Assembly (NCBI GenBank): GCA_937944405.1
Contig: CALDYR010000142.1
Span: 1 to 64,000, forward strand
Length of the DNA: 64,000 bases
Direction: 5' to 3'
Origin: an uncultured Pirellulaceae bacterium
Lineage (GTDB): Bacteria > Planctomycetota > Planctomycetia > Pirellulales > Pirellulaceae
A program made the position numbers and the translations under genes. A model generated the notes under the pieces. It was given only the letters and a program-made list of their open reading frames with translations. It was not told where the DNA came from and did not search any database. Shown here piece after piece: positions 28,688 to 38,296 of the stretch; within the stretch, counting starts at the first letter, position 1, and every line of letters starts with the position of its first letter.

Positions 28688-31548
<2,861 letters not shown>

Positions 31549-31641
31549 ATTGGAAATTTCAATGTGCCAAGAGGAATTTAAAAGAGTTAAAAAATTCAAT
31601 AGTCCAGCCCACATCGTTCGCTAAGATCCAAGACGATTTCC

Positions 31642-32760
31642 TTAACGCCGATCCTTACTCAGCGGCATAATCACGTAGCCGTACTGATCCTCGGTCGAAA
31701 AATAAGCTGCTTGTTCGCCGTCTTTGATGTCGAAGGTGAAGGTTTTATCGGGTTGTAGAACCTTCAAAAAATCAGCAACGTAGCGATGGTCCAGTGTGAT
31801 CGTCTTCGGTTCGCCATCGTAGGGAACCGGCATCTCGATGCGCGATTCTCCGACTTCGGCGGTAGTGTTGCTTAGCACTAAAGAACCGTCTCCAAACGTA
31901 AAATCGACGCCTCGACTTTCGTCACTTGAAACGATCGCGGCTTGTCGCAGCGATTGGTACATCGGCCCCACGGCGATGTCGATTTTGTGACCGTTGTCTC
32001 GTTTGGGGATCACATCCTGCCATTTTGGATAGCGGCCTTCGACCAAACGAGTAAAGAATACTCCGTCTGGTGATCTGACCAGCAGTTCGTTCGCCTGGGG
32101 TGAGATTTGAACCTTTTCTTCATTGTCAGGTAAAATACGGTCGATCAGTTGCATCGACCGGGAGGGTACGATTGTGGAACTGCCGTTGTCCTCGGGGGTT
32201 CCTACGACCTCCATTTTGCCACGTTGCACTGCCAGACGCCGGCCGTCGGTTCCGATGGCGACCAGTTGTTCGCCATCGACCTCTAACTTCACCCCGCCCA
32301 AAGCGTAGCGACTGCTTTCGGCGTCGGTTGCGAACAGCGTGCGCTTGATCAGTTCACGCAATACGTTGGCCGACAGTTCGTAGTAGTCCTTGACTTCGAA
32401 ATCAGCGACCTCGGGGAATTCGTCGGGGTTATGAGCCTGCAGTTCGAATTTACTGCCTTTGCCTTTGATGATTGTTTTTTCCGGGGTGGCGTTGATCTCC
32501 AAATTTTCGTCCCGCGATTCCCGCAAGATCATGCTCAAACGCGTCACAGGAATAACCGCCGATCCAGAGGTACCGACCATAACTTCGGGAACGACAACGC
32601 GGATGCCGACTTCCATATCAGTGGCAGTCAGGACGCACGCGGTTTCAGAGCATTCGATTTTCACGTTCGTCAGAATCGTTTTAGGACTGCGTGAAGGCGC
32701 GACGGTCGCCGCTAATTGGAATGCTTTGAAGAACGGCTCTCTTTGGATGGTTATTTTCAC
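31642..32760 (-). CDS. dnaN: DNA polymerase III sliding clamp (beta subunit)
   Basis: A 372-residue clamp protein, close to the standard 366-380. GTG start: MKITIQREPFFKAFQLAATVAPSR. Three homologous clamp domains are recognisable, with KGKGSKFELQAHNPDEFPE, FATDAESSRYALGGV, TDGRRLAVQRG, VEGRYPKWQDVIP and the conserved C-terminal tail YVIMPLSKDR. It forms the processivity ring for the replicase. It lies downstream of dnaA across the putative origin region and upstream of DUF721-gyrB on the same strand. Confidence 0.96.
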   Translation of the reverse strand: MKITIQREPFFKAFQLAATVAPSRSPKTILTNVKIECSETACVLTATDMEVGIRVVVPEVMVGTSGSAVIPVTRLSMILRESRDENLEINATPEKTIIKGKGSKFELQAHNPDEFPEVADFEVKDYYELSANVLRELIKRTLFATDAESSRYALGGVKLEVDGEQLVAIGTDGRRLAVQRGKMEVVGTPEDNGSSTIVPSRSMQLIDRILPDNEEKVQISPQANELLVRSPDGVFFTRLVEGRYPKWQDVIPKRDNGHKIDIAVGPMYQSLRQAAIVSSDESRGVDFTFGDGSLVLSNTTAEVGESRIEMPVPYDGEPKTITLDHRYVADFLKVLQPDKTFTFDIKDGEQAAYFSTEDQYGYVIMPLSKDRR

Positions 32761-32846
32761 GTGTTGCCTTTAGTTTCTTCTTGGTTGTCTTGGGTTAGGT
32801 GAACTTGCGGTTCAATGATTTCGTTTGTTAGGCCATCGAGTGGGGT

Positions 32847-33145
32847 TTGAAATCAAATAGCTTATATAAGTTCTTTTTCAGTATTGTTATTTATGTGATG
32901 CCCAAAAGTGTTGATAACCTTGGGTGCTTTGTTGTTATCTCTATGAGCAGCGGTAATTTAAGACGCTTGCCTGCCAGTGGAAAACGTGTTGGTTTAACGT
33001 GTGCGGAAGTGTTGATGGAGTGTGAAGAAATATGTTGGTAATCGCCAGGGGTAGATAGACTGTTGAAAAACGATTTTGCGATCTACAGCCTTGACGAACT
33101 TTCGACAAGTTTTCCATGGTCAATTTGGGAGTGTGTTGAATCAGA
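32847..33145. other. oriC: Candidate replication origin: array of TGTTGRNAA motifs between dnaA and dnaN
   Basis: In the 488 bp dnaN-dnaA gap, six same-strand nonamers beginning TGTTG occur within 235 bp: TGTTGATAA (32909), TGTTGGTTT (32987), TGTTGATGG (33010), TGTTGGTAA (33033), TGTTGAAAA (33061) and TGTTGAATC (33134). They resemble TTATCAACA, a variant of the DnaA box. An AT-rich stretch (32847-32925) lies beside them. Location next to dnaA and dnaN fits an origin; function is inferred. Confidence 0.4.
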
Positions 33146-33248
33146 TTGCGTAAGGGATACTTGTCTGGACGGGTTTTCTTGTGGGGGTTCTTCCTCGGGT
33201 TCAGAGAGCGTGGGTCGGGTGGCGGTAAACGATCAGTTTTAAGCAACG

Positions 33249-34418
33249 TCATCTCTGGTATATTTGCGCAGCGAATTGATCAGTTAGTTGTTGTTTCAGT
33301 GTTTCAATCGCCGCATTGGTCGCGTTGGGAGCCCCGTCTTGGTAGATAGAACTAATTTTCTGGTGCGAATGTAGCACCGTAGAATGATCGCGGTTCCCAA
33401 ACGCGCGACCAATTTTCACGAAACTGATGCCCAGTAAAGAGCGTGTTAAAAAGATTCCTATTCCGCGCGCAATTACGACGGTTTGTTTGCGGGAAGCACT
33501 TTTTAAATCGCTGAGTTTCAACCCGAACATTTTAGCAACACGTCTTTGGATCAGTTTGATCATCTTTTGCTGGTCTTCTTCGCCCGGCTGCAACATGGAC
33601 AGCAGCGTCGGACGGTCGACCACTCGGCGTTGACCGTCGACGCGGAACTTGAGGCCGATTTGCACAAACAAGTGCTCAAGTTTTGGGACCGTGACTTCGA
33701 ATTGATCGATCAGCAGTTCGCTCGCTTCGGGTGTCAGTTGGACATCGTGAATAACAGCAAGCTCTTTTAAAATCGCGCGACGAGCGTTATTGCCGGGCGG
33801 GTGCAGCGGCAGGCTTAGTCCACACGAAAGCCGCGAAGACAAACGGGAGCTTATTCCATCAAGCGTCAGTGGCAAGGTCGGACAAGTGACAAACAGAGGC
33901 TTGCCTGTCTTGCAGCATGATTCAACCAAAGAGGCCAATTCGTTCTGGGCGGGAGACTTATTGACTAACTGTTGCAGGTTGTCCAACAGGATCGCTGGTG
34001 CGGACAAAAACCTATTGCGAAATTCTTCGACGCTATCGGTTTCGATTGCGGCATAAAAACGTCGGGCAAAATCCGATCCCGAAACAAAAATGGGTTCTTC
34101 AGCACAGTGGACCGATTCGAGAAATTTTGAAATTAACGCCATCGCCAAAGCGGTTTTGCCGGTACCACTGGAACCGTACAGCACCACCGGCATCAAACCA
34201 CAGGTTCCGCCGAGGGTCGTTTGGTCTAAAAAATCATCGGTCGTTAAGTACTTCAATAAAGCGTTCGCTTCGTCACCGAAGAATCGAGACAATCCGGTTG
34301 CACATGCGGTACCGGGATCACCAGCGCTAAGAAAATCGGAGCGCCATTGGTGGTTCAGCGAAACCGAAAAAACAGCGTTCAAATTGTCAGTGAAAGCAGT
34401 AGGCATAAACGGCGCCAT
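33249..34418 (-). CDS. dnaA: Divergent chromosomal replication initiator DnaA (lacks domain I)
   Basis: A 389-residue protein, shorter than usual (about 440-470) because the N-terminal DnaB-interaction domain is missing. The AAA+ domain has Walker A GSSGTGKT (82-89). Walker B reads LLDNLQ (144-149) where DnaA normally has two acidic residues (LIDDIQ). The segment LFVTCPTLP lacks the sensor-1 Asp. The arginine-finger box SRLSSRLSCGL is kept. The C-terminal DNA-binding helix-turn-helix carries the DnaA signature FGNRDHSTVLH. Identity is supported by the neighbouring dnaN and gyrB. It is either the initiator with altered ATPase chemistry or a DnaA paralogue. Confidence 0.85.
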   Translation of the reverse strand: MAPFMPTAFTDNLNAVFSVSLNHQWRSDFLSAGDPGTACATGLSRFFGDEANALLKYLTTDDFLDQTTLGGTCGLMPVVLYGSSGTGKTALAMALISKFLESVHCAEEPIFVSGSDFARRFYAAIETDSVEEFRNRFLSAPAILLDNLQQLVNKSPAQNELASLVESCCKTGKPLFVTCPTLPLTLDGISSRLSSRLSCGLSLPLHPPGNNARRAILKELAVIHDVQLTPEASELLIDQFEVTVPKLEHLFVQIGLKFRVDGQRRVVDRPTLLSMLQPGEEDQQKMIKLIQRRVAKMFGLKLSDLKSASRKQTVVIARGIGIFLTRSLLGISFVKIGRAFGNRDHSTVLHSHQKISSIYQDGAPNATNAAIETLKQQLTDQFAAQIYQR

Positions 34419-34572: not shown

Positions 34573-35766
34573 TCATTGGGAAGTTGCCGATGTGGATAAC
34601 GTGTCAAAAACCTGTTTGCAAATTGTCAGGGAACTGTCGACTTCCTGTTCGGTGTTTAAGGCACCTAAACTGAAGCGAATTGAACCCTCCACAACATCGT
34701 TATTGGCGCCCATTGCGATGATCACGTGGGAGGCATCGCTGGAACCGCTGGCACAGGCAGAACCGGTCGAAATTGCTAAACCGGCAAAGTCGGCGGCCAT
34801 CAAAAAAGCCTGACGATTGATTCCTGGAAACGAGACGTTTAAGGTGTGGGCCATGCGAGGGGCGTCGTGACCGTTGATAACGATATTGGGAACGATCTTT
34901 TGAAGGCCCGTTTGCAGGTCGTCGCGCAATTGGCGGATTCTGGTTTCTCTGTTGGTGTCGTTTTGAAATTCGATCAACGCCCGGTGCATGCCGGCGGTCA
35001 AGGCGACGTCTTCGGTGCCCGGTCGTGTGGCCATTTGTTGGAACCCTCCATAAAACATCGGTGGCAGTTCGATACCATGCCGAAGCATCAGCGCGCCTAC
35101 TCCGCGGGGCCCGTGAAACTTATGGGCCGTCATTGACAAAGAATCGACGCCCAGATCAGAGAAATCAATCGCAGTTTTGCCGACCGCTTGAACAGCATCG
35201 CAGTGAAACAAAACATTCTGCTGACGACAGAGCGCGGCCGCGGTTTTGATAGGTTGGACCACGCCAGTTTCGTTGTTGGCAGCCATAATGGAAACCAAGG
35301 CGATTGGGTGCTGTCGGTCGGTGGCAAGTTTCTGTTGAAGATCGGAAAGAATAATGCTGCCGTTTTGGTCAACAGCAAGTCTTTCGATGGTGTATCCGGT
35401 GGTCCCCAGATAGTCGGCGAAGGAAAGTACGCTGGGGTGTTCGACCGCGCTGATGATGATGCGGGGGGCGCGGGAACCGTTTTTGTTTTTTCGGCCGACG
35501 GCCGCCAAACCCGCCAAAGCAAGATTATTGCTTTCGGTGCCACCGCTGGTGATGATGAGACGGTCGGTTTCCATACCGCTGGCGACTCCGCCAAGCATCG
35601 TGACCATCTGGGCACGAAGTTGTTCAAGTTTTCGACGGGCGGACTGTCCCGGTCGATGTTGGCTGGCAGGATTGACGAAGCCCTGCGCGTAACACTGAGA
35701 AACCGCAGCGGCAGCGCCAGGACTGATGGAGGTGGTCGAGTTATTGTCGAAATAGATGGTTTTCAT
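34573..35766 (-). CDS. Cysteine desulfurase (NifS/IscS family)
   Basis: A 397-residue PLP enzyme that takes sulfur from cysteine for Fe-S clusters and tRNA thiolation. It has YFDNNSTTSISPG at the N-terminus, TSGGTESNNLALAGL, HCDAVQAVGK, the PLP lysine in SMTAHKFHGPRGVG, RPGTEDVA and the catalytic Cys loop GSACASGSSDASHV. The long Cys loop places it in the IscS/NifS group. It lies upstream of dnaA on the same strand, 154 bp apart; a perfect DnaA box overlaps its last codons. Confidence 0.93.
   Translation of the reverse strand: MKTIYFDNNSTTSISPGAAAAVSQCYAQGFVNPASQHRPGQSARRKLEQLRAQMVTMLGGVASGMETDRLIITSGGTESNNLALAGLAAVGRKNKNGSRAPRIIISAVEHPSVLSFADYLGTTGYTIERLAVDQNGSIILSDLQQKLATDRQHPIALVSIMAANNETGVVQPIKTAAALCRQQNVLFHCDAVQAVGKTAIDFSDLGVDSLSMTAHKFHGPRGVGALMLRHGIELPPMFYGGFQQMATRPGTEDVALTAGMHRALIEFQNDTNRETRIRQLRDDLQTGLQKIVPNIVINGHDAPRMAHTLNVSFPGINRQAFLMAADFAGLAISTGSACASGSSDASHVIIAMGANNDVVEGSIRFSLGALNTEQEVDSSLTICKQVFDTLSTSATSQ
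34591..34599 (-). promoter_or_regulatory. Perfect DnaA box
   Basis: TTATCCACA on the minus strand, identical to the consensus. It lies about 175 bp upstream of the dnaA start within the 3' end of the desulfurase gene, beside an AT-rich gap (34419-34572). It may autoregulate dnaA or belong to an origin. Confidence 0.55.
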
Positions 35767-37813: not shown

Positions 37814-38296
37814 GTGACGCAACTAATTAGAAAATCAGATGACCGCCAACTTGAGCGTGACGACACGTACATGACCCCTCTCGCAACATCATCGTTTCAA
37901 ATCCAAACCCCCGGTTTTGGTTCTATTGCCCTTGAACCAGCGCGATACGATTTTCTCGCGCCCTACATCATGGCTGAAATCGACGACGTAGAAGATGACG
38001 ATGACGAGTACGAAGAAGACAGTGAAGAAGAGTACGAGTCAGATGAAGAAGATGAAGATGAAGATGATGGCGAATACGAAGACGAAGACTACGAGTACAT
38101 CGACGACGATGAAGATGAGGATTCCGAAGACGATCAACAAGACGACGACTTCGAATACGAAGTCGAAGAAGAAGAAGACTTAGACGACGACTTAGACGAC
38201 GACTTAGAAGACGATGAGTGGGAAGAAGTCGATGACGATGACGAACTCGACGACGATGATGACTGGGAGGATGATGATGACGACGATTGGGATTGA
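37814..38296 (+). CDS. Polyacidic low-complexity protein
   Basis: A 160-residue frame from a GTG; ATG alternatives lie at codons 20 and 53. From residue 53 to the end (108 residues, MAEIDDVEDDDDEYEED...), about 81 residues are Asp or Glu, interrupted mainly by Tyr, Trp and Leu. Net charge is extreme and the protein must be disordered or ion-bound. No lysine or arginine lies in that tail. Such proteins can mimic DNA, chaperone basic proteins or buffer cations; none is shown here. It follows scpB and precedes convergent hemA. The repetitive GAC/GAA codons might also reflect simple-sequence expansion. Confidence 0.65.
   Translation: MTQLIRKSDDRQLERDDTYMTPLATSSFQIQTPGFGSIALEPARYDFLAPYIMAEIDDVEDDDDEYEEDSEEEYESDEEDEDEDDGEYEDEDYEYIDDDEDEDSEDDQQDDDFEYEVEEEEDLDDDLDDDLEDDEWEEVDDDDELDDDDDWEDDDDDDWD

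Follow-up and report, generated by a model that had tools for sequence, protein, structure and literature searches.

How is chromosome replication started in a bacterium whose dnaA gene, in its usual place beside dnaN, encodes a protein with an altered ATPase site and no helicase-recruiting domain I? The prevailing view holds DnaA to be one protein that does everything at a bacterial origin, and the locus examined here may depart from that picture. The window (the whole stretch of DNA that was analysed, 64,000 nucleotides) carries on one strand a short dnaA followed by dnaN, dciA and gyrB (Table 1), and the available part of a published study (PMC5109545) assigns DciA to the replication operon, in planctomycetes as well. 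In the following, SHORT denotes the dnaN-linked short type of DnaA and LONG its full-length paralogue; residue numbers are those of E. coli DnaA, except that the trio-pocket residues E183, N187, I190, R202, K222 and E228 are numbered as in B. subtilis.

Table 1. Features of the window around the short dnaA gene.
Feature	Position	Strand	Basis or remark
gyrB	28688..31177	-	named from its sequence
dciA, helicase operator	31177..31614	-	profile search; single match in the genome
dnaN, beta clamp	31642..32760	-	TIGR00663, 228 bits, above cut-off
SHORT dnaA-dnaN intergenic region, probable oriC	32761..33248	-	one-mismatch boxes; homologous gaps enriched in boxes; GC-skew turn
DnaA-box-like TTATCAACA, 1 mismatch	32909..32917	-	box scan
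DnaA-box-like TTTTCCACT, 1 mismatch	32976..32984	-	box scan
DnaA-box-like TTCTTCACA, 1 mismatch	33021..33029	-	box scan
DnaA-box-like TTTTCAACA, 1 mismatch	33061..33069	-	box scan
SHORT dnaA, 389 aa, domains III and IV only	33249..34418	-	Pfam, alignment, AlphaFold model
DnaA signature FGNRDHSTVLH, box-reading helix	33369..33401	-	D433 in 79/79 and H434 in 78/79 family SHORTs
Sensor 2: Arg334 replaced by Pro245, Lys next	33684..33686	-	alignment
Arginine finger Arg196 (E. coli Arg285), kept	33831..33833	-	alignment; 79/79 family SHORTs, 30/31 others
Sensor 1 TCPT, residues 178-181, D269 replaced by Pro	33876..33887	-	alignment; TSD reads T-C-P
Walker B LLDNLQ, residues 144-149, second acidic residue Asn	33972..33989	-	alignment
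Walker A GSSGTGKT, residues 82-89, Lys kept	34152..34175	-	sequence; K178 in 74/79 family SHORTs
Perfect DnaA box TTATCCACA, upstream of SHORT, within the end of the NifS-like ORF	34591..34599	-	by eye
160-aa ORF	37814..38296		extremely acidic Asp/Glu-rich tail

The protein was characterized with profile searches and a structural model. Pfam matched Bac_DnaA at residues 76-202 (66.6 bits) and Bac_DnaA_C at residues 287-355 (79.9 bits), both above cut-off; the DnaA equivalog model TIGR00362 gave 199.6 bits, below its cut-off of 343.9, and the Hda model 48.2 bits against a cut-off of 194.8. Pfam returned no DnaA_N (domain I) match in the window SHORT at E-values up to 1. With an open frame of only 395 aa and an upstream NifS-like ORF (by sequence) ending at a distance of 154 bp, domain I cannot be accommodated, and a missed upstream domain or a frameshift was ruled out as its explanation. 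The initial annotation's report that domain I is missing and that dciA is a neighbour therefore stands, the former on frame length, spacing to the upstream ORF, the Pfam search and a dedicated domain-I profile. An AlphaFold model built with 20 family sequences (pLDDT 86.3) matched the DnaA structures 1l8q and 8btg with a Z score of 21.7 and rmsd values of 10.5 and 12.2, respectively, which are large because domains III and IV are placed differently in the full chains; taken singly, domain III matched 8bv3 (Z 20.8, rmsd 2.6) and domain IV matched 1j1v (Z 17.4, rmsd 1.4).

Alignment also agreed with the motif changes first described for this gene. Walker B lacks its second acidic residue, D235-D236 of E. 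coli reading D-N, and the sensor-1 aspartate is absent, the position being Pro; Walker A, the arginine finger and the box-reading signature are kept. The possibility that the acidic residue of Walker B is merely displaced by one position, which the initial annotation had put forward for checking, was rejected by the alignment. R399, R407, D433, H434 and T436 are all retained relative to E. coli DnaA, as are R202, K222 and E228, and the trio-binding residues E183 and N187 are replaced by Ser and Arg. The Walker B change itself is atypical: D236 is kept in 50 of the 79 SHORTs of the window's family (Asn in 13, Gly in 9), and it was dropped as a key feature for that reason. Across the aligned sequences, the constant losses of SHORT are domain I, the sensor-1 Asp and E183/N187. 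Weak or no ATP hydrolysis by the window SHORT can fairly be predicted from its residues.

The initial annotation had further supposed that SHORT might be the only DnaA, in which case initiation would proceed through weak ATP hydrolysis and another loader, with DciA at hand. A search of the genome (3.95 Mb in 161 contigs, 93% complete) for a second dnaA found one on contig C150, encoding a 503-aa protein. This LONG DnaA scores 351.6 bits with TIGR00362, above cut-off, matches the domain-I model PF11638 (28.9 bits) and has all the canonical motifs, namely GPSGSGKS, LLAIDDIQ, an SSD sensor 1, the arginine finger and the sensor-2 Arg. A DnaA-domain search of the genome at E-values up to 1 returned SHORT and LONG and nothing else, Hda had no match over cut-off, and DciA had one match only. 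The degenerate AAA+ site and the missing domain I are thus real, as is the adjacent dciA, but the premise of a sole DnaA is refuted, here and in most sampled relatives; given a second, full DnaA with both ATP site and domain I, initiation requires neither weak hydrolysis nor a route around domain I. The single-DnaA reading is almost certainly wrong.

The pair is widespread. DnaA was matched in all 80 genomes of the window's family, with at least two matches in 74, and five of the six single-match genomes (G039, G041, G054, G062, G063 and G065) are under 90% complete. In the class sample, composed of 59 genomes of at least 90% completeness each, 51 had two or more DnaA matches. The eight single-match genomes of the class carry a LONG-type protein, an assignment made by alignment for four (L156, L161, L170 and L211) and by frame length alone for the other four (549, 535, 598 and 570 aa), and six of the eight belong to family f56. 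In the phylum sample, TIGR00362 matched in 107 of 108 genomes, with at least two matches in 77. Gene order and three SHORT-type loci in planctomycete records (L233, L234 and L249) suggest that the sampled genomes are Planctomycetota and that the family is probably Pirellulaceae. The degenerate member of the pair is the copy linked to dnaN in nearly every class member sampled.

Family f56 (loci L154, L166, L184-L186, L204, L205 and L211) amounts to a natural SHORT-loss experiment. No SHORT match was found in six of its 14 genomes, meaning no second match at E-values up to 1e-5, a limit that a strongly altered SHORT could escape; LONG evidently can suffice there. Where SHORT is present in this family it lies away from dnaN, by about 3-20 kb in G230, G203 and G211, and H434 is lost in all five sequences fetched. 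The distance from LONG to dnaN is about 45-220 kb in G194, G196, G211 and G214, and also in G207 if the contig there is circular. Some f56 loci have perfect boxes near dnaN (nine exact boxes versus 0.4 in shuffled sequence over 12 loci of about 4.1 kb each), and one-mismatch boxes in the same 12 loci are near chance (20 versus 14.9).

To compare the two types, residues were counted in one alignment of 224 DnaAs, obtained from 229 ORFs after removal of two fragments of a frameshifted DnaA (L132) and three duplicates; the main counts use 79 family SHORTs, and one residue alignment covered 78 of them (L149 left out). In the family SHORTs the box-reading residues R399, R407, D433 and T436 are present in all 79 and H434 in 78, and among the kept parts of the ATP site are the arginine finger R285 (79) and the Walker A Lys (74). 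Losses fall on D269 (kept in 1), E183 (1), N187 (0), R334 (12) and R227 (18), together with part of D236; the N187 position is Arg in 68 of the 79, and I190 is mostly lost in SHORT. R202, E228 and K222 persist in 65, 56 and 50 of these proteins. The 37 family LONGs present the opposite pattern: R227, R285, R334, E183, R202, K222 and E228 occur in every one, D236 in 31, D269 in 26 (Asn in 7) and N187 in 15, and of the box readers R399 is found in 10 and D433 in none (Ser in 28).

Outside the window's family, the 31 SHORTs keep R399 (31), R334 (29) and, mostly, D236, with D433 in 21 (Asn in 9, and N433 in 9 of the 11 SHORTs of family f2), and have D269 in 2, E183 in 4, N187 in none, R202 in 9, K222 in 3 and E228 in 14. 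The 28 LONGs of these other families keep R399, D269 and R334 (26 each) and N187 (22), with D433 in none (Asn in 18). Over all 110 SHORTs this gives R399 in 110, the arginine finger in 109, E183 in 5, the sensor-1 Asp in 3 and N187 in 0, and over all 65 LONGs R227, E183, R407 and H434 in 65, R285 in 64, R334 in 63, D269 in 52, N187 in 37 and D433 in 0.

Conservation over whole domains followed the same division. A set of 68 columns hardly varies across 32 canonical dnaN-linked DnaAs; of these columns, 41% in domain III and 81% in domain IV are conserved in family SHORTs, and 58% and 66%, respectively, in family LONGs. Domain III is better conserved in LONG than in SHORT in all seven families (f1, f2 and f54-f58); domain IV is better conserved in SHORT in f1, f2, f55, f57 and f58, and in LONG in f56 and f54, the latter with two sequences of each type. 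The domain-I profile matched none of the 110 SHORTs at E < 1e-3 (two weak matches, E = 0.33 and 0.76) and all 65 LONGs, the latter result being partly by construction as LONG, canonical and wide-sample sequences went into the profile; it also matched 17 of 17 second DnaAs from other classes, none of which was used in building it. Pfam DnaA_N was found in 14 of the 20 LONGs scanned and was absent for the 20 SHORTs among the matches listed (25 of 34 families). Judged from these residues, the losses in SHORT and LONG are largely reciprocal. The reciprocity is incomplete, and LONG, with R407 and H434, may still bind DNA.

Signals around the genes point to SHORT as the neighbour of the origin. On the same strand, dnaN lies downstream of 95 of the 110 SHORT genes, mostly 230-550 bp away, and was near none of the 65 LONG genes within the fetched flanks of about 1.2 to 4 kb. 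The 15 SHORT genes for which dnaN was not seen comprise five from f56, four from f1 with more than 3 kb of downstream flank, and the remainder with 0.3-1.5 kb of flank. In 72 family SHORT-dnaN gaps, the box TTWTNCACA occurs exactly 31 times versus 2.6 in shuffled gaps, and with one mismatch 170 times versus 54. At least one exact box is present in 27 of the 72 gaps (0-3 in shuffles), and boxes with at most one mismatch in 68 (39-45 in shuffles); the exact-box count is the better evidence, because one-mismatch boxes are common by chance. Upstream of LONG, exact boxes number 1 versus 0.8 in shuffles and one-mismatch boxes 31 versus 18.6.

The same gaps contain runs of trio-like 8-mers of the TAGTAGTA type in 21 of 72 cases (0-2 in shuffles), invariably on the same strand and no more than about 100 bp from the end next to dnaN, and a strict scan requiring three TAG repeats retained 8 of 72. 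Read on the opposite strand, these runs follow the order G+C-rich spacer, CTACTACT, A+T-rich stretch. A G+C-rich spacer, then trios, then an A+T-rich region is the layout of the B. subtilis unwinding system. The window's own SHORT-dnaN gap holds no exact DnaA box but the four one-mismatch boxes of Table 1, and the scan found no clear trio run in it; the cumulative GC skew of the window turns at 28-32 kb. Given the enrichment of boxes and trios in the gaps, the window boxes and the skew turn, oriC probably adjoins SHORT.

We propose that the replication initiator of most of the class is split between the two paralogues, SHORT and LONG, a reading that we hold to be somewhat likelier right than wrong. 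Its starting points, that is, the two genes, their distribution and linkage, the residue losses, the selection described below and the box and trio enrichment beside SHORT, are observed; from them we infer a physical hetero-assembly with division of labour and helicase loading by LONG. SHORT would be the origin reader, with domain IV binding the DnaA boxes and with an AAA+ domain that would serve as a structural module, offering its arginine finger to the next subunit while its own ATP switch stays idle. LONG would be the motor that binds and hydrolyses ATP and builds a filament on the single strand of the DnaA-trios, and its domain I would bring in the helicase, together with DciA.

The B. 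subtilis BUS complex provides a framework for this proposal. In the available text of PMC10721633, boxes are followed by trios, the arginine fingers point to the single strand and away from the boxes, and a bipartite pocket holds the bases, with protomer 1 contacting the guanine of the first trio through R202 and E228, and protomer 2 the adenine through N187 and E183; there, one protein fills all positions, whereas SHORT and LONG may share them. Dependence on the box-trio arrangement and the arginine finger in several species is described in the accessible part of PMC8287927, which makes no mention of a planctomycete. In its sharpest form, our proposal would make SHORT a dedicated first protomer. 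A protein that is only ever first would need domain IV, the arginine finger, K222, R202 and E228, and could dispense with E183, N187, domain I and an ATP switch of its own. This signature is supported by the residues of the window's family and not by those of the class, because R202, K222 and E228 are so often missing from the SHORTs of other families.

Findings from E. coli, as given in the available part of PMC5742627, are that R281 is needed for subunit contacts, that R334 is dispensable for functional initiation complexes and needed for hydrolysis, and that sensor 1 serves tight nucleotide binding. An acidic residue stands at the interface position R281 in 61 of 65 LONGs, which hints at a changed subunit interface. 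A stronger version of the proposal, in which the initiator would be an obligate hetero-oligomer, with a dead-switch, box-reading SHORT always first and capping an ATP-driven LONG filament, as an independent counterpart of ORC, is put forward tentatively and at less than even likelihood.

The main rival explanation is that LONG initiates alone and SHORT is a regulator, occupying boxes at oriC and others close to the SHORT gene, either as a nucleotide-blind competitor for boxes or as a trigger of LONG-ATP hydrolysis in the manner of Hda. Hda triggers the hydrolysis of DnaA-ATP in proteobacteria, and it resembles SHORT in being a DnaA-like AAA+ protein without domain I that keeps the arginine finger; SHORT differs from it in keeping domain IV and in being encoded at oriC. 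The loss of switch residues from a SHORT that retains its arginine finger and box reader, the lack of an Hda match over cut-off in this genome and the f56 genomes without a SHORT match would all suit a regulator. So would the enrichment of exact boxes upstream of SHORT as well (13 versus 1.6 shuffled over 68 stretches; one-mismatch boxes, 40 versus 26.6). Against this, box reading by LONG alone is harder to envisage with D433 lost in 65 of 65 LONGs and R399 in 27 of the 37 family LONGs, and a pure competitor would need no strongly conserved AAA+ domain such as the one found here (see the dN/dS values below). We regard a purely regulatory SHORT as unlikely, though a serious contender.

The converse, that SHORT is the true initiator and has no need of an ATP switch, LONG now acting as a transcription factor or a regulator, would account for the canonical box reader of SHORT and its place next to oriC. 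It is nevertheless very improbable: LONG keeps most of the single-strand pocket, the ATP site and domain I, as an origin-opening filament needs, and the single-match f56 genomes retain the LONG-type protein rather than SHORT. SHORT has moreover lost N187 and mostly I190, both of which are needed in B. subtilis, where domains III-IV alone open strands, according to the available text of PMC10721633.

Long branches, and the decay and loss in f56, could also suggest that SHORT is a decaying relic of an ancestral dnaN-linked dnaA, kept by chance. The dN/dS ratios (Nei-Gojobori) of 11 close SHORT pairs are 0.00-0.19 in domain III and 0.00-0.17 in domain IV, two of 13 pairs having been dropped (L051 being a duplicate); one of the four LONG pairs was saturated. 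Sequence divergence thus places SHORT under purifying selection in both domains, as no relic would be, and the near-invariance of R399, R407 and the arginine finger and the single clade that spans the sampled families of the class argue in the same direction. The relic reading was rejected on the low dN/dS, and we consider it extremely unlikely.

SHORT and LONG each form one clade (support 100/98 and 99/99) in a tree of 41 chosen rows that leaves aside the longest branches and the second DnaAs of other classes. In a larger quick tree, support was 93 for LONG and 99 for SHORT, whose clade there took in two long-branch DnaAs from other classes. As each type is one clade over the sampled families, the split between them probably predates the spread of the families of the class. 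The two types group together with support of 98/97, and a grouping of SHORT with the canonical dnaN-linked DnaAs was not rejected (p-AU 0.18); descent from the ancestral dnaN-linked DnaA and a class-specific duplication are both compatible with the tree.

The specificity of the losses was assessed in other bacteria. In a wide sample of 80 bacterial DnaAs, 77 keep D269, R334 and R281, and the three others are planctomycete SHORT-type loci (L233, L234 and L249); this sample was fetched by a domain-IV pattern, which fixes its domain-IV counts in advance and leaves domain III alone as the control. The same three residues are all kept in 32 dnaN-linked DnaAs from the same phylum outside the class, a set whose members are for the most part among the 30 top-scoring TIGR00362 matches of the phylum sample and which is hence biased to canonical proteins. 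Five of 20 low-scoring DnaAs taken from other classes have dnaN linked to them in the flank (L342, L345, L351, L352 and L353). The sensor-1 Asp is lost in all five (N, S, S, S and R) and domain I, R334, E183, R399, D433 and H434 are kept, with the arginine finger lost in one and N187 replaced by Ser in one. D433 is kept in 3 of the other 15 low-scoring proteins. For two of the five dnaN-linked proteins, the distal DnaA of the same genome was fetched too, and it has lost D433 (Lys and Ser) and also the sensor-1 Asp.

Sensor-1 loss, by this alignment, is not confined to SHORT, and loss of D433 from distal copies also reaches beyond the class; in the sample, a missing domain I and a missing trio pocket look peculiar to SHORT. 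The five proteins resemble SHORT in having dnaN as neighbour, in the loss of the sensor-1 Asp and in retaining D433 and R399, and are unlike it in keeping domain I, E183 and R334. They may represent a milder stage of a graded trend, whose far end would then be the window's class. The likelihood given to the split initiator is left unchanged by this control, because the division between box reader and motor draws on more than sensor 1. Among distal second DnaAs of other classes (L214, L215, L217, L220, L223, L225 and L226), D433 is changed (Lys or Asn) and the ATP site is kept, and a DnaA with an altered reader may be older than the class. Two of them, L214 and L215 of genome G145, lie about 0.5 Mb apart on one contig and are identical over the tree columns, an identity that by sequence marks a recent duplication or gene conversion.

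Set beside known initiators, SHORT shares with canonical DnaA (E. coli, B. subtilis) the fold of domains III and IV, Walker A, the arginine finger, the box reader and linkage to dnaN, and departs from it in lacking domain I, the sensor-1 Asp, the sensor-2 Arg (in the window's family) and the adenine half of the single-strand pocket, and in coexisting with a full-length DnaA in the same genome. Eukaryotic ORC is built of related AAA+ subunits, only some of which are catalytic, with arginine fingers given in trans; SHORT and LONG belong to another family and are two bacterial, box-specific subunits. Multiple DnaAs also occur in chlamydiae, a further PVC lineage, and the available part of PMC4989314 places DnaA1 across PVC bacteria and DnaA3 in chlamydiae, treats DnaA1 and DnaA3 as transcription factors and does not mention reciprocal loss, a comparison made here by description only. 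The literature search gave no description of a DnaA pair in planctomycetes among the matches listed; dnaA is not mentioned in the available part of PMC12283558 and is absent from the main text of a transposon study (PMC10632474) of P. limnophila, a species that probably falls in the f2-like part of the class.

If the split-initiator proposal is true, box reading, the arginine finger, the ATP switch and helicase recruitment would be genetically separable, chromosome copying in most of the sampled relatives may need both DnaAs, and the pair would illustrate a path by which an initiator of several subunits can arise. The gene annotated as dnaA beside dnaN in these bacteria probably does not encode the ATP-switch protein.

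An element of a different kind was found upstream of the family LONG dnaA genes, where a promoter-like pattern reads TTTGACA-N5-TGCTAGCA-N-TA(G/C/A)AATC (L003:240-300 on contig C150 in this genome), with a palindrome between its -35-like and -10-like parts. GCTAGCA occurs in 30 of 37 LONG upstream stretches versus 1.3 in shuffles, and the full pattern is found once in this genome; a dedicated regulator of LONG may bind this element.
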